Positions 4,853 to 31,409 of a stretch of 33,745 bases of DNA are shown here, one piece after another. The notes under the pieces are model-generated. The model was not told the DNA's origin. It searched no databases and saw only the letters and a list, made by a program, of their open reading frames with translations. The DNA comes from Thermoguttaceae bacterium (lineage in GTDB: Bacteria > Planctomycetota > Planctomycetia > Pirellulales > Thermoguttaceae), in the NCBI GenBank assembly GCA_028694795.1, contig JAQVKF010000018.1, positions 1 to 33,745 on the forward strand. Direction: 5' to 3'. Made by a program: the position numbers and the translations under genes. How positions within the stretch are numbered: the stretch's first letter is position 1; every line of letters begins with the position of its first letter.

Positions 4853-7800
4853 ATGAATCGAACATTGGGTTGGCTAGTCGGTTTCGTGTGGTGCGTTGGA
4901 GTGGGAATTCCGATGGAAGCGGCGGTCGGTGTGGAACCGTCCGAATCACGTTCTGCCCCGGTGGTCCGATTCGACTTCGAAGACGGTACATCGCAAGGCT
5001 GGACGATTTCCGAAGGGATGTTCGGAAAATGGATCGGTGAACGTGAGAATGAATATCATAACGAGGCGATTCCCTATGTTAAGCAAGGACGCTATTATCT
5101 CACGACACTCGACAATGAGGACGCGACCATTCCGAACGACGGTTATACGGGAGTGATTGAATCGCCCGTTTTTACTATTTTGGACGATGTTGCAGGAAAC
5201 CGTGCGACGCTGCTGGTCGGTGGCGGTGGCAAGACCCGTTCCGCGGAAGAGTATATTGCCCTGGTTATCTGGGACGCCGATCAGACTGATCCTGATCAAG
5301 CCAACCAGGAAGTGCTGTTTGCGCGGGGCGACGATTCGCAAAAATTGGCGGCGTGCGAATGGGATTTGACGCCTTGGGTGGGGAGATTGGCTTATTTGCG
5401 AGTCGTCGATCGACATGCGGGCGGCTGGGGACATATTCGGTTCGATGATTTCCGCTGTACAGGCCGACTCGAACCGCAAAAAACGGAACAACGTGACGCT
5501 ACACGGCTCCAGCGAAAATTGCAAATGCAGTATCAACCGAAAATCGAAGCGTTATCCGCGGCGATCCAAGAGCTAGGATTAACAGAATTCCAAGAGCCGT
5601 TGGAACAGTTGAACCATCGTTTCCAAACGCGGCTGAAAACATCCGAGGCGACCATAGATTCGGCTAATCTATGGGAACGAGACTTCGAGGCGTTACGTAA
5701 GAGGGTACTCGTTACGAAGAATCCACTCGTGGCCGCGCATCCCATCCTATATGTCGAGCGTCCACAATATACACCAGATCACCATAACACGGAAACGATT
5801 TTCCAGACGGGCGAGATCAACACGGCTTCGTTCCGTGGTGGAGCGGCGTTAAAAGTGTGGGATGCGGCGACCGATACGACACATACGATTTACGAGTTAA
5901 AAGAAGGTGGAATCCGCGATCCGGACGTTTCGTTCGATGGTACGAAGATACTCTTTTCGGCGAGAAAAAACCGAGACGATGATTGGCATCTGTACGAAAT
6001 TTCAGCGAGTGCGACACCGGAATCGCCGATTGGTTTGCGGCAAATCACCGATGGTCCAGGAGTTTCGGATATCGATCCGATTTATTTGCCGGATGGCGAT
6101 TTCCTGTTCGCCTCGACCCGCGATCCGAAATACTGTATGTGCAATCGGCACATTATGTGTAATCTTTTCCGATGTGGTCCGAATGGCGAGAATATTTATC
6201 AAATCACGTGGAATACGCTGTTCGACGGCCATCCGACGCTATTAGAAGACGGACGTGTTATTTACGATCGTTGGGAATACGTGGATCGTAATTTTGGCAG
6301 CGGGCAGGGCACTTGGACAATCAATCCTGATGGTACGCAACCGGTGGTTCATTATGGTAATAGTACCTATTCGCCGGGTAGTGTTCTTGATTCGCGACCG
6401 ATTCCCGGTACGCAAAAAGTCGTTTCGACTTTTTCATCTTGTCACGATCTTCCTTGGGGAGCGATTGCGGTGATTGACCGTCGCCGTGGCGTCGAGAACC
6501 GGCCTGGTGTGGAACGCACGTGGCCGGAGGATGCGATTCAATTGGTCGATGTCGGCGATTATGACACATTCAAACGAGTCTATCCACGTTATGAAGATCC
6601 GTACCCGCTTTCGGAGCATTTTTTCCTCTGTTCACGTATGCTCGGCGGCGAATCGGGGGAGCGGATGGGAATATTCCTTCTCGATACTTTCGGAAATGAA
6701 ATTTTACTCCACGAAGACGCTCAGGGTTGTTTCGATCCAATGCCGCTGACCGCACGGAGTGTTCCACCGATGATCGTCCCCCGAAGCGATTTTTCACGCA
6801 CCGATGGTGAATTTTTTGTTCAGGATGTTTACGAAGGTGCCTCAATGCGAGGTGTACCACGCGGTTCGGTCAAATCGTTGCGTGTGATTTCGTCGCCGGA
6901 AAAACGGTTCTGGTGCGGACCGGCGTGGGATGGTGGAACGGGACAACAGGCTCCCGGCATGGCGTGGGACGATTTCAACAACAAAGCGATCCTCGGTACG
7001 GTTCCGGTCGAAGAAGATGGTTCCGCGTACTTCACGGTCCCAGCGGGGGTTTTTGTCTATTTCCAGGCGCTGGACGCCGATGGACGCATGATCCAAACGA
7101 TGCGTAGCGGTACGAGCGTTCAACCGGGTGAGCGTACTGGTTGTATTGGTTGTCACGAAAATCGTCGAGGAAGTGCCCCGATGGTGACGTCGTTCTCCGC
7201 GACAGCCGGTGGTTCATTACCGATGGCGGTGTCGCGAGAACCGAGCGTGCCGCAACCGTGGTACGGTCCCGCGCGGAATTTTAGTTATCGAACGGAAGTT
7301 CAGCCGGTTTGGGATCGATACTGTGTTTCGTGTCACGACTACGGTCAACCAGCGGGTGAAGTGCTGAATTTGTCCGGGGATACAAATCTTATTTTCAATA
7401 CGTCGTATACGGAGTTGCGTCGTAAACCGGCGGTTGGCGTGAAAGTTGTCGGTGCGGGACCGGCCCCTGTGTTACCAGCGTATACGTGGGGAGCATCGCA
7501 ATCACCTGTCGCGCGGGTTGTCCAGTCCGGTCACCAAAATGCGGACCATGATCGTGGTTTCACGATGGACGCGGAATCGGTGGACCGTGTGTTGACGTGG
7601 ATTGATTTGAACGCGCCGTATTATCCGGAATATGCGACCAGTTTTCCAGATCATCCGTTTGGTCGCGCTCCTATCACAGGGGAAGAACTCAATCGATTGA
7701 ATCAGCTGACCGGTTTAGATTTGTCACGACCGGAGAACCTGACACTGTTGAGTTTTACGCGACCGGAAGTCAGTCCCGCGTTGTCGAAGATTCCGTTGGA

Positions 7801-7990
7801 TCGTCCATCGGATCGCGAGGAAGCGCTGGAGATTTTACGACGTGGACAGCAGCGATTCGCGGCGACCCCAGGAGCGGAGATGACTAATTTTCAGTTCACA
7901 CGTCCGGAGGAAATTTCGAGACGGGAAAAAGCGGAACGTTTGCGAGCGGCCGATCACGCGGCTCGGCAACAACTGCTTTTACAACCGTAG
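4853..7990 (+). CDS. Secreted dihaem PD40/HzsA-middle-domain-like protein
   Basis: The 1045-aa protein has an N-terminal signal peptide (hydrophobic run to about residue 24). A jelly-roll-like segment follows (about 35-207, VVRFDFEDGTSQGW to HIRFDDFRCTG), then a helical linker (about 210-290). A long beta-propeller region contains TolB/PD40-like repeats (PDVSFDGTKILFSARKN, DIDPIYLPDGDFLFASTR) and the Cys-rich CMCNRHIMCNLFRC. Two c-type haem motifs follow, CIGCH at residues 764-768 and CVSCH at 824-828. This arrangement resembles the planctomycete family related to the alpha subunit of hydrazine synthase. No beta/gamma partner or other anammox gene is nearby, so hydrazine synthesis is not implied; an extracytoplasmic redox or sensing role is an inference. 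AGAGGA precedes the ATG by about 8 bases. The 230 bases upstream contain no other gene. Confidence 0.85.
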   Translation: MNRTLGWLVGFVWCVGVGIPMEAAVGVEPSESRSAPVVRFDFEDGTSQGWTISEGMFGKWIGERENEYHNEAIPYVKQGRYYLTTLDNEDATIPNDGYTGVIESPVFTILDDVAGNRATLLVGGGGKTRSAEEYIALVIWDADQTDPDQANQEVLFARGDDSQKLAACEWDLTPWVGRLAYLRVVDRHAGGWGHIRFDDFRCTGRLEPQKTEQRDATRLQRKLQMQYQPKIEALSAAIQELGLTEFQEPLEQLNHRFQTRLKTSEATIDSANLWERDFEALRKRVLVTKNPLVAAHPILYVERPQYTPDHHNTETIFQTGEINTASFRGGAALKVWDAATDTTHTIYELKEGGIRDPDVSFDGTKILFSARKNRDDDWHLYEISASATPESPIGLRQITDGPGVSDIDPIYLPDGDFLFASTRDPKYCMCNRHIMCNLFRCGPNGENIYQITWNTLFDGHPTLLEDGRVIYDRWEYVDRNFGSGQGTWTINPDGTQPVVHYGNSTYSPGSVLDSRPIPGTQKVVSTFSSCHDLPWGAIAVIDRRRGVENRPGVERTWPEDAIQLVDVGDYDTFKRVYPRYEDPYPLSEHFFLCSRMLGGESGERMGIFLLDTFGNEILLHEDAQGCFDPMPLTARSVPPMIVPRSDFSRTDGEFFVQDVYEGASMRGVPRGSVKSLRVISSPEKRFWCGPAWDGGTGQQAPGMAWDDFNNKAILGTVPVEEDGSAYFTVPAGVFVYFQALDADGRMIQTMRSGTSVQPGERTGCIGCHENRRGSAPMVTSFSATAGGSLPMAVSREPSVPQPWYGPARNFSYRTEVQPVWDRYCVSCHDYGQPAGEVLNLSGDTNLIFNTSYTELRRKPAVGVKVVGAGPAPVLPAYTWGASQSPVARVVQSGHQNADHDRGFTMDAESVDRVLTWIDLNAPYYPEYATSFPDHPFGRAPITGEELNRLNQLTGLDLSRPENLTLLSFTRPEVSPALSKIPLDRPSDREEALEILRRGQQRFAATPGAEMTNFQFTRPEEISRREKAERLRAADHAARQQLLLQP

Positions 7991-20091: not shown

Positions 20092-20150
20092 GGTATCCAT
20101 TCGATGGGCCGTGATGGATTACTTTGTGTGATGGATTACTTGGTATCCAT
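20092..20150. repeat. Short tandem duplication over a stop codon
   Basis: GTGATGGATTACTT occurs at 20111-20124 and again at 20128-20141, and GGTATCCAT occurs at 20092-20100 and 20142-20150. The second copies contain the stop and last codons of the HHxxxDG gene, so the 3' end of that gene appears to have been partly duplicated. Confidence 0.7.
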
Positions 20151-21566
20151 GCCGGACGGTTCGAGATTTTTCAGAATTTGTTGCCGAAAAAGCTCGGTGA
20201 ATTCTTTCGCCTCGGCCATCGTAAAGCGGTGCGGATCGAAATGAAAACCAATGGCCATTTGACCATGATATAAATGGTAGGCAATGGCGAGACCCGTGCG
20301 AGGACGAACGGGGGGAGCGGAGATCATACCGTCGAATTGCAAATTGCCAACGCGGATGGAACCATTGTCGTTCGTTGGAAATTCTCTTTCAAAACGACGT
20401 GGAATATCACCAAGGTAACTGTGAATCGCGGTTGCAAAACAGGTGGTCGAACCTACAAAATAACGCACAATCCACGGATGATTTTGAGTACGATTCAGTA
20501 ATCTCGCAAAATATAACGCTTTGTTCTCGGTATGCGTTTCGAGAATTTCCTGATTCAAGTCGCTTAAAAGCTGCTGCGGCTGAATGCTTGATGCGCAAAG
20601 CCGACGGACGGGGAAAACATAACTCACCACGTTGGCGGCGGGAAGTTTTTCATGGTTTTCACCACGCATACTCACCGGTACGCCCACACGGAACCAATAC
20701 GATTTTGTCTTACGCGGTCCGTATTTCTCGTGCCATTTTGCAATACAAACGTATAAATCTCGCATGAGCAACACATTGAGCGTCGCGTCGACCGACTTGG
20801 CGCATTCTCGTAATTTTGACACTGTTTTCGTGTCAAAATCGAGTTCGAGCGTTTGACGGCATGGCTGTTGGTCTTCCGGAAGCGACTGCGTTTGCGCAAG
20901 CGATTCATCCTGCAAATGGGGATGCTCCGATTTCAATCGCTTCGCGGACGGCGACATCAGCTGGGCGGGCGGAATAATGACCCAACGTAAAAAACTTTTA
21001 ATTCGCTTATAAGAAGATCTTAATGAACGAAAATGCCCGCTGAAAACTTTCGGGAAATTTTTGCGTTCGCTGAGCGTTGCGGGATCTAACTCTGGAATCG
21101 CGATTGTCTCACCCATCGAACGCGCATAAAACGCGAGTAAATCGCCCAGCATACGAAAAATCCCCAAACCGTCCGAGACGCAATGGTGAACGAGCAGATG
21201 GAGTCTGCTGTACCCATCGGCGACATGCACACGAATCCGAACGCCGGGCGTTTGTGTCAGATCAATGCCGCGTAGCGGCAGCGTTTCGCGACACGTTGGG
21301 GCAGAGGCATCTTCCCATTGAACGGGATGGACGTAATTTTCGTGGTAAATCCAACTGGGTAGTGGGCGTGTGGAGGGGTCCACTGTGCAGGAAAAGAGCG
21401 GATGACGCCGCATCGTTTCGTGGACCGCTTCTTCGAAACGAGTGCGATCAATTTCTCCTGTGAATCGCAACGTGGTTTCGACCTCCATCGGATATTCCGG
21501 ATGATGGTCTACCCACATATAATATTCAAAAGGCGTCATCATTAACGGGAAAATCTGGTCCATCAT
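20136..21566 (-). CDS. Condensation/acyltransferase-like protein (HHxxxDG family)
   Basis: The 476-aa cytoplasmic protein belongs to the same superfamily as the gene at the left edge. It begins with PLMMTPFEYYMWVDHHPEYP; HHCVSDGLG at residues 127-135 is the acyl-transfer motif, with His128 as expected general base. LNVLLMRDLYVCIAKW, GVPVSMRGENHEK and SYLGDI correspond to later elements of the fold. Family members include NRPS condensation domains, wax-ester synthase/diacylglycerol acyltransferases and alcohol acetyltransferases. No carrier-protein or adenylation domain is present here, so a free-standing O- or N-acyltransferase is likelier than an NRPS module. It is convergent with hemD and divergent from a Tat-exported hydrolase. 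Substrate unknown. Confidence 0.87.
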   Translation of the reverse strand: MMDQIFPLMMTPFEYYMWVDHHPEYPMEVETTLRFTGEIDRTRFEEAVHETMRRHPLFSCTVDPSTRPLPSWIYHENYVHPVQWEDASAPTCRETLPLRGIDLTQTPGVRIRVHVADGYSRLHLLVHHCVSDGLGIFRMLGDLLAFYARSMGETIAIPELDPATLSERKNFPKVFSGHFRSLRSSYKRIKSFLRWVIIPPAQLMSPSAKRLKSEHPHLQDESLAQTQSLPEDQQPCRQTLELDFDTKTVSKLRECAKSVDATLNVLLMRDLYVCIAKWHEKYGPRKTKSYWFRVGVPVSMRGENHEKLPAANVVSYVFPVRRLCASSIQPQQLLSDLNQEILETHTENKALYFARLLNRTQNHPWIVRYFVGSTTCFATAIHSYLGDIPRRFEREFPTNDNGSIRVGNLQFDGMISAPPVRPRTGLAIAYHLYHGQMAIGFHFDPHRFTMAEAKEFTELFRQQILKNLEPSGMDTK

Positions 21567-23760: not shown

Positions 23761-25149
23761 TGAGGCTAGGGAAACGATTGATTTTTTGCGATTGGCTTTT
23801 TGCTGCTGCGTGTTTCTAACCATGATCTTTCGTCCATTATATGCGGCAGATGTAACTTTGAATGCACACGTGTCAACGGCTCAAACCGCTGTGCCGTTAC
23901 GACCGAATACCTTTTTATTCTTGCCGATGATCTTGGGATTGGTGACCTAGGGTGTTATGGTCAGCAACATATTCACCCCCTCTGCCGCACAGGGAATTCG
24001 TTTTACGTAAGGGTATAGCGGGGCAAGTGTTTGTGCTCCGTCACGTGCCACTCTGATTACGGGACTTTTGACGGGAGACTTGTCCGATTCACGCAAATCA
24101 TGAAATTGGTGTGGAAGTTCAGATGCCGCTGCTGGAGGGAACGTTTACGGTCGCCAAAATGCTTCAATCGCAAGGGGATGCGACGGGCTATTTCGGCAAA
24201 TGGGGGATGGGCATGTTCGACACGACCGGTTCACCTTTCAAAATGGGATTCGATTAATTCGCGGGATACAACAGCCAACGACACGCCCACCATTATTTGC
24301 CAAATATCTCAACGACGACCAGACACGTGTCGAACTTGGTGGAACGGTCCACTCCGCTGACTGGATCGGTGAACGAGCGATTCGATAGATACGCGAAAAC
24401 GTTCAGGCGAAAAAACCGTTCTTCCTTTTCTATGCGACGACGATGTATACCTACCACGAAGTGACGTCGTTGGGTGTCTATGCAGATACTGATCGGATAG
24501 ATGTATAGAAGACACTATGATACAATCAGACACGGCTGAATACAGGGGCGGGAGTGATAAGATGCCTAGAAGAAGAGGAATGGATGGCAATACGCTGATC
24601 ATTTTTAGCGGTGATGGTGGGGCGATTTTCAACCGGATTCGGTGAATGAACGTTTTTTTAACCAATCAATGGGGCTACTGGGTTGGAAACGCAGTGCGTA
24701 TGAGGATGGACTTCGGAATGCGTGTTTGGCGTAGTGGAAGGGAAAAATCCAGCCCGGTCAAGTGTACGACGTACCGTGGGTATTGTACGATTTTTTTGCC
24801 GACTTATGCGGAATTGACCGGAACGACCATTCCGGAAGGTGCGACGGATGACGAATCAATGACGCCACTGTTGTTTAGCGGTGCGGCGGGGGGCACTTGA
24901 GTGATCCGCATTGTCGCCGTATAGAGCGTTCCATCGGGAATTGCATGAGGGAAATCCCATCCAGGGGATTCGATTTGGCGATTGGAAAGAGGTCGAAATG
25001 GTCCGAAACCCTCGATTGAACTGTACGATTTGAATACCGATTGGCAGGAAAAACGAAATATCCGGCAGAACACCCGGTGAAAGTCAAAAAGCCGCCGAAT
25101 TACAGCGAACGATGTGAACTCTGGCCCTAACTGGCCCATGGGCGAGTGA
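23761..25149 (+). pseudogene. Decayed arylsulfatase
   Basis: Pieces of a full sulfatase can be read in order by changing frame. They are a signal peptide ending PLYAAD (about 23761-23850), ILADDLGIGDLGCYGQQHIH, AAQGIRFT-stop-GYSGAS, the formylglycine signature CAPSRATLITG (Cys at 24032), NHEIGVEVQMPLLEGTFTVA, YFGKWGMGMFDTTGSPFKMG, AKYLNDDQTRVELGG, AKKPFFLFYATTMYTYHEV, GNTLIIFSGDGG, WKGKIQPGQVYDVPW, FLPTYAELTGTTIPEGATDD and the C-terminal GPNWPMGE before TGA at 25147-25149. In-frame stops occur at 24008 (TAA), 24255 (TAA), 24386 (TAG) and 24732 (TAG), with at least five frameshifts and small deletions. A working copy would be a secreted enzyme cleaving sulfate from polysaccharides. It is certainly non-functional. 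Confidence 0.93.
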
Positions 25150-25515
25150 TGGGGTAATGTTAAGGCTGAAGAGATGTACTTGGGCGTGTGTACATATAAT
25201 CACATGGTAAAAAGCATGGCCAAGAATGGAATAACAGTAATCGCAATGGTTCATGTCGGCCGATGTTGAAGTTTTTGCGTCTAGTAAAATGTTTTGGAAT
25301 GGGTGTTTGAGGGGAAACTTTTTGCAAAAAGTTTCCTCTCATTGGTTTTTCGCTTCAAAAAAGTTTTACAAAAAAACCTTTCGTGGAAAATACGCAAACT
25401 TTCTACCTAACACTGGTACAGCCGATCGCCCCGATTGGTGTGGTAACTTGTGTGAACACGTCCTAGGACAGTAATCGAAGATGCCAAGCCTCGTCCGCAA
25501 TTTTTGTTGCAATTG
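25150..25515. other. 366-base gap between sulfatase pseudogene and tsaB
   Basis: No gene is seen. It holds the palindromic element at 25309-25378 and, at 25400-25467, short words related to those at 22732-22905. Confidence 0.5.
25309..25378. repeat. Compound palindromic element (MITE- or REP-like)
   Basis: 25313-25336 is a perfect 24-base palindrome (arms GGAAACTTTTTG/CAAAAAGTTTCC). With one G-T mismatch the stem extends to 25309-25340. A second inverted pair, GGTTTTT (25344-25350) and AAAAACC (25372-25378), follows at once. The convergent pseudogene and tsaB lie on either side. It could be a dispersed palindromic repeat or a double terminator; no transposase is present. Confidence 0.6.
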
Positions 25516-26334
25516 TCAAATTTTCTGTTGCGTTCGGCGCTCTTCTGCGGCACTCGGACGGCTATAAAATGGTTGCACTTTCCACAAATCGGCGTAATCT
25601 TCCGCCGCCATTTTTCGGGTGGTGATCGTCGCTACCGCACGAGCGGTTGGCGAACGAAGCGTTTCCCGAACGAGTAACAAGTGGGATGGTAATTTGGCTT
25701 GGACGGTTGGACGATTGAGGATCGAACCCGCAAGCCAAATCGAAGTATCCTGCGGCAATTGGGCGATTTCAGTCAACGCGTCACTAATCGAGATCGGCCG
25801 ATCGGTCACCGCGATACGTTGCCAACCACCGTTTTGCCTATTCGTTTCTGTTGGTTTTTCGTCCGACAGGCGACTTAATGCGGTTGGTCCAAATCTTTTC
25901 ACCGAAGCTGATTGATAAATGGCCGTTACGACCTGTCCGCGTTGTGCATCGACCCATACCACCAAGGTCGTCGCGGACGAACTCTTGGGCAGTGTGGCAA
26001 AAAACGCTTCCGCAAAGGTGTCTCGCGTATCGACCGTTACCAATTTCGCGTGAGTGACGTATCCAATCGCCTTTGCCGTTGCCAAACCAACGCGCAAACC
26101 GGTGAACGAACCCGGACCGATACTAATGCCAATCGTAGTTAAATCTCCCGCCGACCACCCCGCCTCGTGTAACATCCGAGCTAAAAGCGGGGCGAGCGAT
26201 TGGGCACTACGGCTTTTCGGATCTAAACGTTCTTCACAATCGTACAACGGAGTGGATGAGGTTGTGTCCCACTCCTGCAATGCAATCGACCCCGCGGTCT
26301 CGGATGTCTCTAAAGCTAAAATCTTTTGAGTCAT
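25516..26334 (-). CDS. tsaB: tRNA threonylcarbamoyladenosine biosynthesis protein TsaB
   Basis: TsaB partners TsaD (and TsaE) in making t6A37 in tRNAs that read ANN codons; it is a regulatory, non-catalytic ASKHA-fold protein. The 272-aa product begins KILALETSETAGSIAL and has the hallmark GISIGPGSFTGLRVGLATAK near residue 70. It is longer than the 231-aa E. coli protein, mainly through a variable C-terminal half. Its ATG (26332-26334) overlaps the TGA of the EpsI-like gene (26331-26333) as ATGA, so its translation may depend on ribosomes finishing that gene, which is now interrupted. If coupling matters, tsaB expression could be reduced. Confidence 0.94.
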   Translation of the reverse strand: MTQKILALETSETAGSIALQEWDTTSSTPLYDCEERLDPKSRSAQSLAPLLARMLHEAGWSAGDLTTIGISIGPGSFTGLRVGLATAKAIGYVTHAKLVTVDTRDTFAEAFFATLPKSSSATTLVVWVDAQRGQVVTAIYQSASVKRFGPTALSRLSDEKPTETNRQNGGWQRIAVTDRPISISDALTEIAQLPQDTSIWLAGSILNRPTVQAKLPSHLLLVRETLRSPTARAVATITTRKMAAEDYADLWKVQPFYSRPSAAEERRTQQKI

Positions 26335-27242
26335 TCTTGTTTATCCTGTACGAGCGTGGATGGCGCGGCAGCAAATTCGGGATATCCACTCCAAAGGAAT
26401 TTCTGGATTTCGAGCGTCAAGCTCTCCGCTGTCGTGAGCATTTTTGCGGGATCTGAATCTTCCATCCGCAGATCGAACATGACCTTTACCAAGGGCGGCC
26501 ATGAATCTTTACCGAAACAGCAGCAAATACGCGCCCAACGTGTTGGCATCTCCCCCATCGCATAATAGGCCTCAGGACCGCGTCCATACTGAAACCATTA
26601 ACCGACATAACGTGTTTCCTGTGCGTTAGCAAAGGTCAACAGCCGGACTGGAAATAACTGACCATTCGGACCTGGAACGAGAATGTCCTCACTCTTTTGT
26701 AAGCTGAATCCATTGCCTGGATAACATTTTTCGGGAATATGCACACGAAAATAATCTTTTGTCCAAATGAAATGGAGAAAAGCCCGCGTACCTTCTTCGT
26801 TTTGATAACAACGATCAAACATCGAAATAGGGGCTAAGTAAGCGATGGTACTCGCACGGTCACTTTTTTCCTGAGGTGTGATAATGGCCACGGAACTGTC
26901 CGACTGGTTTACCTGTTTCCAAACACCACTCTCACGCGGAAAATCCGTGACATCTAAGCCCAAATCCGCAATTCCTTGGAATGTCATGCCTCGTTGCACT
27001 TGAACCGCCATGCCGAGAAAAATCCCGCAAAGCAATACGATCAACCAAACTCGACATACACTATGTGAATGCTGCTTGTCTGAGGTGGACAACACCGTCA
27101 TGGGCCTTCCTTCCAATGGTTTGGAGGGAGAACAGAGCGTGGAGGACGAAGACTCTGTGAATGGTCCTTTTGGAACCGATGGAACAGGTTCATCGATACG
27201 CGGAATCTCTCCCAACCGATTGAATGTGTCGTCCTGCGTCAT
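26331..27242 (-). pseudogene. EpsI-like exosortase-associated protein (DUF3485), interrupted by TAA
   Basis: From the ATG at 27242 the frame runs 214 codons to a TAA at 26598-26600, then continues in the same frame without another stop to TGA at 26331-26333 (303 codons in all, excluding the end). The first part has a membrane segment (about 62-80, VCRVWLIVLLCGIFLGMAV) and the EpsI hallmark FRVHIPEKCYPGNGF. After the TAA come WFQYGRGPEAYYAMGE and a helical end WARICCCFGKD. The family usually has an aromatic Y-W-F/Y-Q here, so the TAA probably replaces a Tyr codon (TAT or TAC). EpsI proteins work with exosortases in exopolysaccharide and surface-protein export. Either a recent nonsense mutation, readthrough, or a sequence error. 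Confidence 0.85.
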
Positions 27243-27495: not shown

Positions 27496-29646
27496 TCAGT
27501 TGGATCGGATATATCGTTTGGATCGTCGTACGGACATGGACTCGATGGTGACAAATCCCATGAGCGGAATGTTCAAATTTTCAAAACCGTTTGAAGTTGC
27601 CAAAATCTCCGGTTTACGACTGTAATCGCGAATCGTACACAAAATCGTACTATCCACGGCTCTGGCGAGCAATCGACTGTCCGCATAAGGTAGGATCGCT
27701 GCACTATCTAAAATCACAAACTCAAAATTTTCACGAAGCTGATTAAGTACCTGTGGAAGTGGTTCGCTTGCCAACTCGGATTCGATCGGTAGCGTCGTGT
27801 CTCCTGTCGGCAGAAAGTACAGATTTTCTACTCCATTGACCTCCTGAACCGCATCTTGCATGGCGGCTTGATTTAACAACAGCTCCGTGAAACCTGGTAT
27901 CTGTTCAGTCTGAAAAATTCTGTGTAATTTACCACGTCGGAAATCCGCATCGACCAGTAACGTTCGATATCCTAAACGTGCCAGACTCCATGCCAGATGG
28001 AAAGCGGATAACGTTTTCCCCTCGCGAACCACGGCACTTGTAATGAGCAGAACTCGAACATTGCGGCATTCTTTTTCTCGAATAAGACGCGTTGCGATGA
28101 TATCCATTGACTCACGGAGAAATTTTTGCCATTTCGGCTTGCCCTGTCCACGAAGAACTGCTCCAGGAACCCGTGGAATAGAGCCTAATAAATCCAAGCC
28201 TGAAAATTTTTTGACTTGGTGACCTGAGTAAATTCGCCCTTTGGAAAACTCCTGAAGAACAAGCAAAAATGTCGGAATGAGGAATCCCGCAAAACCTCCC
28301 GCCACCATACCGGCAAATAATGAAGTGGTGTCCGGCGTGGACAGCTCCATGGGGTCAGAAACACGTTGAATTTTGGGAAGGTTCGCTTGAATCCGTAATC
28401 GCAGTGCCTCTCGATCTGACTGCAATTTTTGTAACAACCCAACCTTACGGTCAATTTCGTTTTGAATGAGTTTCAAGCCGACAGAACCTTTACCGAGCTC
28501 AGCCGCCTGATCTTGAAGACGTGCAGCTTCCTCTTCCATATTTTCCTTTTCAACCAGAAGCATGTCGCGAGTAATATTAAAACGTTCGATATTGCGACCG
28601 GTTTGTGCCGCAACAGCCCTTTGGTAATCAGGAATTTTCTTTTGGGAATACTCCGCTCTTTGCGTTCGAAGGAGTTCCATTTCACTTCGTAAACGCTGGT
28701 ACGACGCATTTGAATTCAGGTCGCTGCCACGTTGAAGATTGGTGTCCATTTGTTCAAGTGCAGTCAGGCGATATAACAGATTTTGGTAAATGGGATCGCG
28801 GCTCATATATTCCAGAAAATCTGGATCATCAAGATTGAATGGAGTTTTGTTCACACTACTTAAAGTCGCTTCTTCAAGCTGAATGTTGGCATCAATCTCA
28901 CGAATCTTCAATGTCGCATTTCGCATTTGAGCTCTTGCATCTGCGTGTTCCTGCCACAATAATTGTTGACGAACCGCCAGCGTCTCCGGATCGCCTGTTT
29001 GTGACATCATCGCCTGAGCCTTATACACATCTTGATCTTGATTGATCTGTTCTTCCATACTTGCAATCGCATCTTGCAATTTGAGAGAGATCATATTCTT
29101 TTCTTCGACATCTTTATCCGAAACACCGGTCTGATACGCGCCGATAATAGCCTCGAGTAATTTTTTCGATTCCGTTGCGTCTTCCGATCGAAGGCTTAAA
29201 CGCACTAATTCGGAACCTTCTAAAACGGTTACGCTCAAATGTTCTTGAATCCAGTCAATCGGGTCTTGATCTTTCGAATCAGGGAGAATCGAGAGACGAT
29301 TGACAAGAGAACTCTCTAACGCTTTTTTAAGCGTTTGGCGGCTCTTCATGATCGTCGTTTGGGTTGCCAAAAAAGACTCGTTTTTTTCTTGATCGACAAA
29401 CATGGAACTCGCGTCTGCCGGTTGTGACACCGAGAGGAAGGCCTCCGCCCCGAAATATACGGGAATATTGGACCACGCTAAATAAACAAAGAGTGAGCCA
29501 AGGGCCGCTCCCAAAATCACCGAGGGTATCCAGCGGCGACGAAGTGAATGTAATACCGCAAGAGGATCAAAATCGACATTCTGCCTGGTATGGAATTTGC
29601 CCACTCGATCCATCACTTCGGGGCTTGATATGGCTTTCGTACTCAT
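27496..29646 (-). CDS. Wzc-like polysaccharide co-polymerase/tyrosine autokinase-type ATPase
   Basis: The 716-aa inner-membrane protein has the Wzz/GNVR layout: a membrane segment near 39-59, a periplasmic coiled coil (about 180-420), a second membrane segment near 441-463, and a cytoplasmic BY-kinase-like domain. That domain has a Walker A-like ITSAVVREGKTLSA (536-548, less canonical than xxPGEGKT), Walker A' LLVDADFRRGK (563-573) and Walker B FVILDSAAILPYADSR (643-658). It lacks the usual C-terminal tyrosine cluster; RYIRSN has one Tyr, so autophosphorylation may be weak. The ATG at 29646 shares its A with the exosortase TGA (TGATG), with AGGAG 9 bases upstream. It should control chain length and export of exopolysaccharide. 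Confidence 0.9.
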   Translation of the reverse strand: MSTKAISSPEVMDRVGKFHTRQNVDFDPLAVLHSLRRRWIPSVILGAALGSLFVYLAWSNIPVYFGAEAFLSVSQPADASSMFVDQEKNESFLATQTTIMKSRQTLKKALESSLVNRLSILPDSKDQDPIDWIQEHLSVTVLEGSELVRLSLRSEDATESKKLLEAIIGAYQTGVSDKDVEEKNMISLKLQDAIASMEEQINQDQDVYKAQAMMSQTGDPETLAVRQQLLWQEHADARAQMRNATLKIREIDANIQLEEATLSSVNKTPFNLDDPDFLEYMSRDPIYQNLLYRLTALEQMDTNLQRGSDLNSNASYQRLRSEMELLRTQRAEYSQKKIPDYQRAVAAQTGRNIERFNITRDMLLVEKENMEEEAARLQDQAAELGKGSVGLKLIQNEIDRKVGLLQKLQSDREALRLRIQANLPKIQRVSDPMELSTPDTTSLFAGMVAGGFAGFLIPTFLLVLQEFSKGRIYSGHQVKKFSGLDLLGSIPRVPGAVLRGQGKPKWQKFLRESMDIIATRLIREKECRNVRVLLITSAVVREGKTLSAFHLAWSLARLGYRTLLVDADFRRGKLHRIFQTEQIPGFTELLLNQAAMQDAVQEVNGVENLYFLPTGDTTLPIESELASEPLPQVLNQLRENFEFVILDSAAILPYADSRLLARAVDSTILCTIRDYSRKPEILATSNGFENLNIPLMGFVTIESMSVRRSKRYIRSN

Positions 29647-31409
29647 CAATTGAGCTCCTCCTGAACGGATTGATCATCGGACGATATTGATTTTAACGAA
29701 GAATCGACAGTTGAGAGTGTATGGGTATCCCCTTCTGAATCAGCTAATTCGGAAGACCGGTTGATCACCTCGTCAGAAACGGATTCCCTTTCAGCGGCAG
29801 ACTTTTTAAGTCCTTCTGATTTCGGCGTTTCCGTCGATTCCGGCGTCTCTGCAAGCGTCGGTTCCACAAACAATATCGACATCAACTCTATTTCCCCCCA
29901 CAATAAAAGCATTGCGAACGGGGCCATGAACATTCCGGCACCATCGTGGAAAAATTTTTCCGCTGATGCCGAATCTGCGTACATGTAAAGGAAACCGGTT
30001 ATAGTAATTCGAAATACATTTGACAAAATGGCAATGGGCACCGCACTAATCAGTACTATTCCCTTTTCGAGCCAATCGCCACGCATGATGAACATACCAG
30101 CGGTACAGATACAAAAAAACAGTACCAACATTTTAAGCCCGCTACACGCTCCAATCACTCCCATCAAATGACCATTAGGTAATGTAATGACATTTCCTGA
30201 CGAATCGGCGGCAATACCAAAAAGCTGAAGAAGCCATACACTTGTCATTGTTCCGATGAGCTGAAGTTTATCCGCGAACATGATACTAAGTAGTTCGGGC
30301 AGCGGTATCATGAAGCCTAAAAAGAGGATCGACGGTGCACTCCAACGTGCCAAACGCGTGCCGCCTAAGAGAAATACTACTCCCAAAAGCAGCGGAACCA
30401 ACGAGGCTGGATAGAGTACCGGATCGCTCAAAAAGGAACCCGCGATGCGAATCGCTCCACCTAGCAAAAGGAACGCCAATCCCCAAAACCAACCCCACGC
30501 GGCCGGACGTATCGCATCCAACCAACAAACCACGGCAGGACTCGCTAAGCGAACGGCTGCTACCAAAAAACAAAACCAACCGAAAATCAAGCAAATCGTA
30601 TCACCATGAAAACGCACGAATGCAAGTTGAAATGTGTGCGTTCCCATTGGCGTTTTCAAACAATCGACGATCTGTTGACGTGAAAAATCAGTCGCTATGC
30701 CAGGAACTCCAAATTTTAATTCATCCTGAAGCTGTTGAGGTGGATGAATTTCCTGTTCAGACGAATTCGTCGCTGATGTATCGCGAGATTTCCCATCGGA
30801 TTGGTCGTTATTCTGGGAAGACTCCGCCGATTCGGAAGGCGTTTTGCCCGGTTCTGGAGACGCTTCGTTTGTTGGAAGTGCGTTACGTGTGGCTACCTGA
30901 GCCGCAACCTCAACCTGATAATAGACGATCTGTCCCGCGAACTGAACGACCGTGCCTAAAAACAGCAACGCACATGCTTGACACAACGCGTTTTGTCGCA
31001 ACAACTGAACAAAACATTCCCACGAGGAAGAACGGGACTCCTTTTTTTTCGAGTGCGAAACCGAATCGTTCTCCATGGATCGAGCGTTCTCCGACATTTT
31101 TAGAGAATCCTCAACCTCCGAAGAATCTGTTTTGAAAGAGGCGTCTGTCCTTAAAGTCGCCGAATCGGAAAAATTCAAATCACAAGAAGATGTGGTTTGA
31201 AGTGCGGATTTTGCTCGTTGGAAACCAGGAAACCATTCACGCCGATACCAAAGCAACCACAATGCGAATGGAATGACCGCGTAACCATGCACGTAATCAT
31301 TGTCATACCAGCGTGTCCAGAGTGGACCACACGCTTTCAGGTAGAAATATACTAGTCCACCCCAAAGGACGATCAAGCCTAACGATACCCCCCACGCTCG
31401 CTTAATCAT
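29646..31409 (-). CDS. Exosortase (XrtU-like), with long hydrophilic inserts
   Basis: The 587-aa polytopic membrane enzyme is predicted to cut and attach or release proteins bearing a C-terminal sorting tail. The catalytic triad is visible: Cys422 in IGACSGLKML, Arg467 in SNVFRIT and His488 in FHDGAGMFM. At least eight hydrophobic segments occur. The core is split by two hydrophilic inserts, about 66-130 and 178-235, rich in Ser, Glu, Asp and Lys, and the C-terminal tail from about 515 is acidic. These make it longer than usual exosortases of about 280-500 aa. AAGGA lies 6 bases before the ATG. It is translationally joined to the Wzc-like gene. No PEP-CTERM-type substrate lies in this window. 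Confidence 0.92.
   Translation of the reverse strand: MIKRAWGVSLGLIVLWGGLVYFYLKACGPLWTRWYDNDYVHGYAVIPFALWLLWYRREWFPGFQRAKSALQTTSSCDLNFSDSATLRTDASFKTDSSEVEDSLKMSENARSMENDSVSHSKKKESRSSSWECFVQLLRQNALCQACALLFLGTVVQFAGQIVYYQVEVAAQVATRNALPTNEASPEPGKTPSESAESSQNNDQSDGKSRDTSATNSSEQEIHPPQQLQDELKFGVPGIATDFSRQQIVDCLKTPMGTHTFQLAFVRFHGDTICLIFGWFCFLVAAVRLASPAVVCWLDAIRPAAWGWFWGLAFLLLGGAIRIAGSFLSDPVLYPASLVPLLLGVVFLLGGTRLARWSAPSILFLGFMIPLPELLSIMFADKLQLIGTMTSVWLLQLFGIAADSSGNVITLPNGHLMGVIGACSGLKMLVLFFCICTAGMFIMRGDWLEKGIVLISAVPIAILSNVFRITITGFLYMYADSASAEKFFHDGAGMFMAPFAMLLLWGEIELMSILFVEPTLAETPESTETPKSEGLKKSAAERESVSDEVINRSSELADSEGDTHTLSTVDSSLKSISSDDQSVQEELN

Follow-up and report, generated by a model that had tools for sequence, protein, structure and literature searches.

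The closest described counterpart of the gene considered here is the EpsI/DUF3485 family (PF11984 in Pfam; TIGR02914 and the EpsI types V and B in NCBIfam), with which it shares a Pfam domain match, an N-terminal membrane helix, a site beside exosortase and kinase genes, and the H-x-P..CY, W-F/Y-Q, and W-P-P-x-x-K motifs. Unlike that family, it has one in-frame TAA immediately ahead of the W-F-Q motif, which interrupts the frame through the C-terminal motifs, and it scores under the cut-offs of the NCBIfam models, both TIGR02914 (27.3 vs 42.8 bits, above chance at E 2.1e-6) and the typed ones. As of 2006, EpsI was described as a protein without known function, and the exosortase family as having conserved Cys, Arg, and His residues (PMC1569441).

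The gene lies in a window of 33,745 nucleotides that is one whole contig (C120) of a draft Thermoguttaceae genome (310 contigs, 3.99 Mb, 89% complete), and its features are listed in Table 1. We consider it probable that an ordinary EpsI gene, part of an exosortase/PEP-CTERM locus, recently acquired the TAA by a nonsense mutation, and we infer here that the base itself is real.

Table 1. Features of the EpsI locus, in window coordinates
Feature	Position	Strand	Basis or remark
tsaB, intact; start overlaps the final EpsI stop as ATGA; neighbor not common to relatives	25516..26334	-	domain match
EpsI/DUF3485-family gene with one in-frame TAA inside	26331..27242	-	whole frame, 304 codons including both stops
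Post-stop tail, 88 conserved codons and TGA	26331..26597	-	family positions W216, F217, Q218, G220, W248, P249, K253
In-frame TAA, codon 215	26598..26600	-	column is Y/F/H/W in 51/52 homologs
Polysaccharide chain-length/tyrosine autokinase-like protein, intact	27496..29649	-	domain matches
Exosortase (PF09721), intact, sole one detected in the genome	29646..31409	-	domain match

A single stop in an EpsI frame with a conserved tail

A sequence-only reading of this DNA had proposed an EpsI-like gene with a single in-frame TAA at this place, and both the frame itself and a profile match to PF11984 (DUF3485) bear it out; the match covers residues 71–220 of the read-through protein, with X at the stop, and scores 33.3 bits against a cut-off of 26.1. 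From its ATG start the frame runs for 214 codons to the TAA and then for 88 sense codons to a TGA. The same reading had counted 89 codons after the TAA; the frame does run on as it said, and its count takes in the TGA. Each of the remaining five frames across this stretch contains 8 to 13 stops so that, judged by those frames, the open tail is not a chance outcome. The 88-residue tail searched alone gave no match in Pfam or NCBIfam, and no solved structure with a sequence relation to the read-through protein was found. AlphaFold2 run on the single read-through sequence gave a model too poor to use (pLDDT 42.7, pTM 0.28).

We aligned 52 homologs found by similarity to the read-through protein, 29 from a search of the same family and 23 from a search of the same class. 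At the column of the stop they have Y (29), F (13), H (6), W (3), or V (1), and Tyr, which the earlier reading had named as the residue replaced, is thus the majority there. The tail aligns in register with every one of the 52, and each of these runs on past the stop column, for 64 to 122 residues in all cases but one, a gene truncated by its contig end that has 53 more. None of the 52 terminates at or near that column, as homologs normally ending at the TAA would do, although with this query any family ending there could be found through its N-terminal part only. An alignment of 18 rows has 11 invariant columns, and five of them (W216, Q218, G220, P249, and K253) follow the stop. The mean BLOSUM62 score per site against the homologs is 0.82 for the tail and 0.90 for the head, and the after-minus-before difference of this gene ranks 19th from lowest among 53, so its tail is no more diverged than its head. 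Codon usage agrees: past the stop the in-frame codon score is −3.99, where 88 windows from other genes average −3.97 (sd 0.06) and out-of-frame windows −4.20. The sequence past the TAA is family-like, as the earlier reading had held. The conserved tail and its gene-like codon score together indicate that normal constraint had acted on the whole frame before the stop arose.

We saw no signs of decay beyond the stop; the tail is unworn, and the frame is, as judged from its sequence, a full EpsI gene with one lesion. Of 2718 possible single substitutions in the frame, 125 (4.6%) make a stop, and one such lesion is therefore an ordinary event. By our own arithmetic, neutral drift at d changes per site would add about 42d further stops to the frame; the presence of none gives d < ~0.07 at 95% from the count alone, and a lower value if indels are included. 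The lesion is evolutionarily young, or else it is an error. A restart of translation past the stop was considered and rejected from a reading of the sequence: the ATG overlapping the TAA belongs to a different frame, and the earliest start codon in the EpsI frame, 13 codons downstream of the TAA, comes after the W-F-Q-x-G motif, so that a fragment begun there would also be without the membrane helix.

Gene neighborhood and copy number

The genes around EpsI are intact. The order exosortase–kinase–EpsI on one strand is found here and in all five relative loci that are long enough to show it (L103, L104, L105, L107, and L108); on the 4.2-kb contig of a sixth locus, L106, only the kinase and EpsI are present. 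The exosortase, as read by eye, retains a Cys-x-Gly motif plus the Arg and His motifs. Its 587 residues include long polar stretches, at about 65–135 and 180–235, that divide its Pfam match in two. Five PEP-CTERM open reading frames in the genome score over the cut-off, all of them with open frames.

On the other side, the final TGA of EpsI and the start of tsaB overlap as ATGA at 26334–26331. This overlap had been described as conserved; it is present, and conservation is where the description fails. tsaB was found in 18 of the 19 relatives searched and lies at the EpsI locus in none of the 18, being on other contigs or, in G088 and G405, >1 Mb from EpsI. Among the genomes compared, only this one has the EpsI/tsaB overlap, and we reject the idea of the overlap as a conserved unit.

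EpsI is present in a single copy. Searches of this 89%-complete genome with the PF11984 profile, with the protein, and with profile A2 at E ≤ 1 returned only the one match, and the second EpsI that the sequence-only reading had suggested looking for was not found by any of them. Among 119 genomes of the family, PF11984 matches at 78 places in 58 genomes, and a stop lies inside the match at just one of these places, the gene described here. An order-wide search likewise gave no internal stop among the EpsI matches listed, many of which end near model position 150.

An exosortase is present in 78 of the 119 family genomes and occurs together with EpsI in 57, while one genome (G039) has EpsI without a detected exosortase. 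The remaining 21 of the 78 exosortase-bearing genomes, including G007 and G008 (both 98% complete), show no EpsI match; in these EpsI is either dispensable or has diverged past the profile, and it is possible that their EpsI lies below the detection limit of the profile. Judged by these sequences, it does not look rare in the family for an exosortase to occur without EpsI, and the exosortase may work without it. The TAA had been said to remove the exosortase partner, and it does fall in the sole detected EpsI of the genome, but given those 21 genomes it is not established that the stop disables sorting.

Several other features of the window may be mentioned. A decayed sulfatase-like stretch (23850–25150, plus strand) is readable only piecewise across several frames, two of which match PF00884 at 25.0 and 19.7 bits (stops written as X), of which the higher is right at the cut-off; this suggests that the contig carries another dead gene, at ~23.9–25.1 kb, a point in favor of a real mutation in EpsI. 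A 1045-residue protein (4853–7990, plus strand) contains a hydrazine synthase alpha middle domain (PF18582, 110 bits), and no anammox gene set is evident around it in the window. A stand-alone condensation-domain protein (PF00668, 46 bits) is encoded at 20136–21566 on the minus strand, with no further peptide-synthetase domains among the window genes scanned.

Explanations for the stop

The single lesion and the conserved tail leave a very recent mutation or a sequence error as the right pair of answers, as the sequence-only reading had it. The error is the main rival to a real mutation, and we regard it as the less likely of the pair, though well worth keeping in view. In that case EpsI is intact in the organism itself, and the TAA comes from a single wrong base or from a minority strain variant chosen by the assembler. 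Such an error is in keeping with a draft in 310 contigs that is 89% complete, with a lesion that stands isolated before a fully conserved tail, and with the open frames of all 19 further genes called in this window; a wrong consensus base would, moreover, look identical to a real TAA. Against it, the site is no homopolymer, and the draft is not visibly error-rich. The latter point comes from a scan of 393 kb of the genome for split genes, which covered 510 cases of neighboring open stretches parted by one stop. A stricter first scan flagged two pairs and not EpsI; knowing how EpsI itself scored, we then relaxed the thresholds, and at the relaxed settings three single-stop splits have coding signal on both sides, EpsI and the same two pairs, which are ordinary neighbors (etfB/etfA and ruvC with the next gene). 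There is thus no second single-stop split gene in the 393 kb, a result still compatible with one error.

It is quite improbable that the truncated protein of 214 residues is still functional and the stop a tolerated new gene end. The membrane helix and the H-x-P..CY motif do precede the stop, and EpsI may be dispensable generally, as the 21 exosortase genomes without a PF11984 match would allow. Past the stop, however, lie W, Q, G, P, and K positions that are conserved, and none of the homologs ends near the TAA.

Readthrough of the stop to give full-length EpsI, whether programmed or by a suppressor tRNA, would account for a frame that stays conserved and gene-like past the TAA, but what we know of termination in this genome speaks against it. 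TAA ends 82 of the 197 open reading frames of at least 250 codons in the 393 kb, and it is the true stop of etfB. A UAA with U as the next base terminates translation strongly. Of the 41 tRNA matches in this incomplete genome, ARAGORN typed all but one, which a contig end truncates, and none of the typed loci has a UUA anticodon or would read UAA. The RNA surrounding the TAA is no more stably folded than shuffled sequences (148 of 200 fold as well; z-score 0.59), and no other EpsI match among those listed in the family has a stop. Genome-wide recoding of TAA we reject on its use as an ordinary stop, on the lack of a suppressor tRNA among the loci typed, and on the absence of another split gene in the 393 kb, and programmed readthrough, which the sequence-only reading had also offered, we dismiss as very improbable.

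Consequences and comparison with known systems

If the TAA is a recent nonsense mutation, as we favor, translation would end after 214 residues. Of the conserved motifs the product would retain Cys-Tyr, along with the membrane helix, and lose W-Y/F-Q-x-G and W-P-P-x-x-K, and most likely it would be inactive or degraded. Ribosomes would halt 264 bases ahead of the overlapping tsaB start. The PEP-CTERM substrates, like the exosortase and the kinase, stay intact. Any effect of the stop on sorting or on tsaB is one that we infer; expression of tsaB could be lowered if it depends on upstream translation.

A real stop would place an EpsI-minus state beside an intact exosortase, an intact kinase, and five PEP-CTERM proteins, and together with the relatives that have an exosortase and no EpsI match (21 of 78) it would bear on the need for EpsI in sorting. 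One may go further and suppose that the stop is fixed as well as real, and that the exosortase still processes its PEP-CTERM substrates without full-length EpsI. This is unlikely, but if true the lineage would be a natural EpsI knock-out, showing which sorting step needs EpsI or does not. Otherwise the significance is small: single nonsense lesions are common, and the TAA may be a consensus error.

With bacterial recoding (selenocysteine, pyrrolysine, or suppressor tRNA) the gene shares an in-frame stop beyond which the frame stays conserved; it differs in that its codon is TAA, an ordinary stop in this genome, with no suppressor tRNA found and no local RNA structure. From single-nonsense bacterial pseudogenes in general we see no distinctive difference: like them, this EpsI gene has one lesion, intact flanks, and a frame and codon signal kept past the stop, as known here from the consensus sequence.
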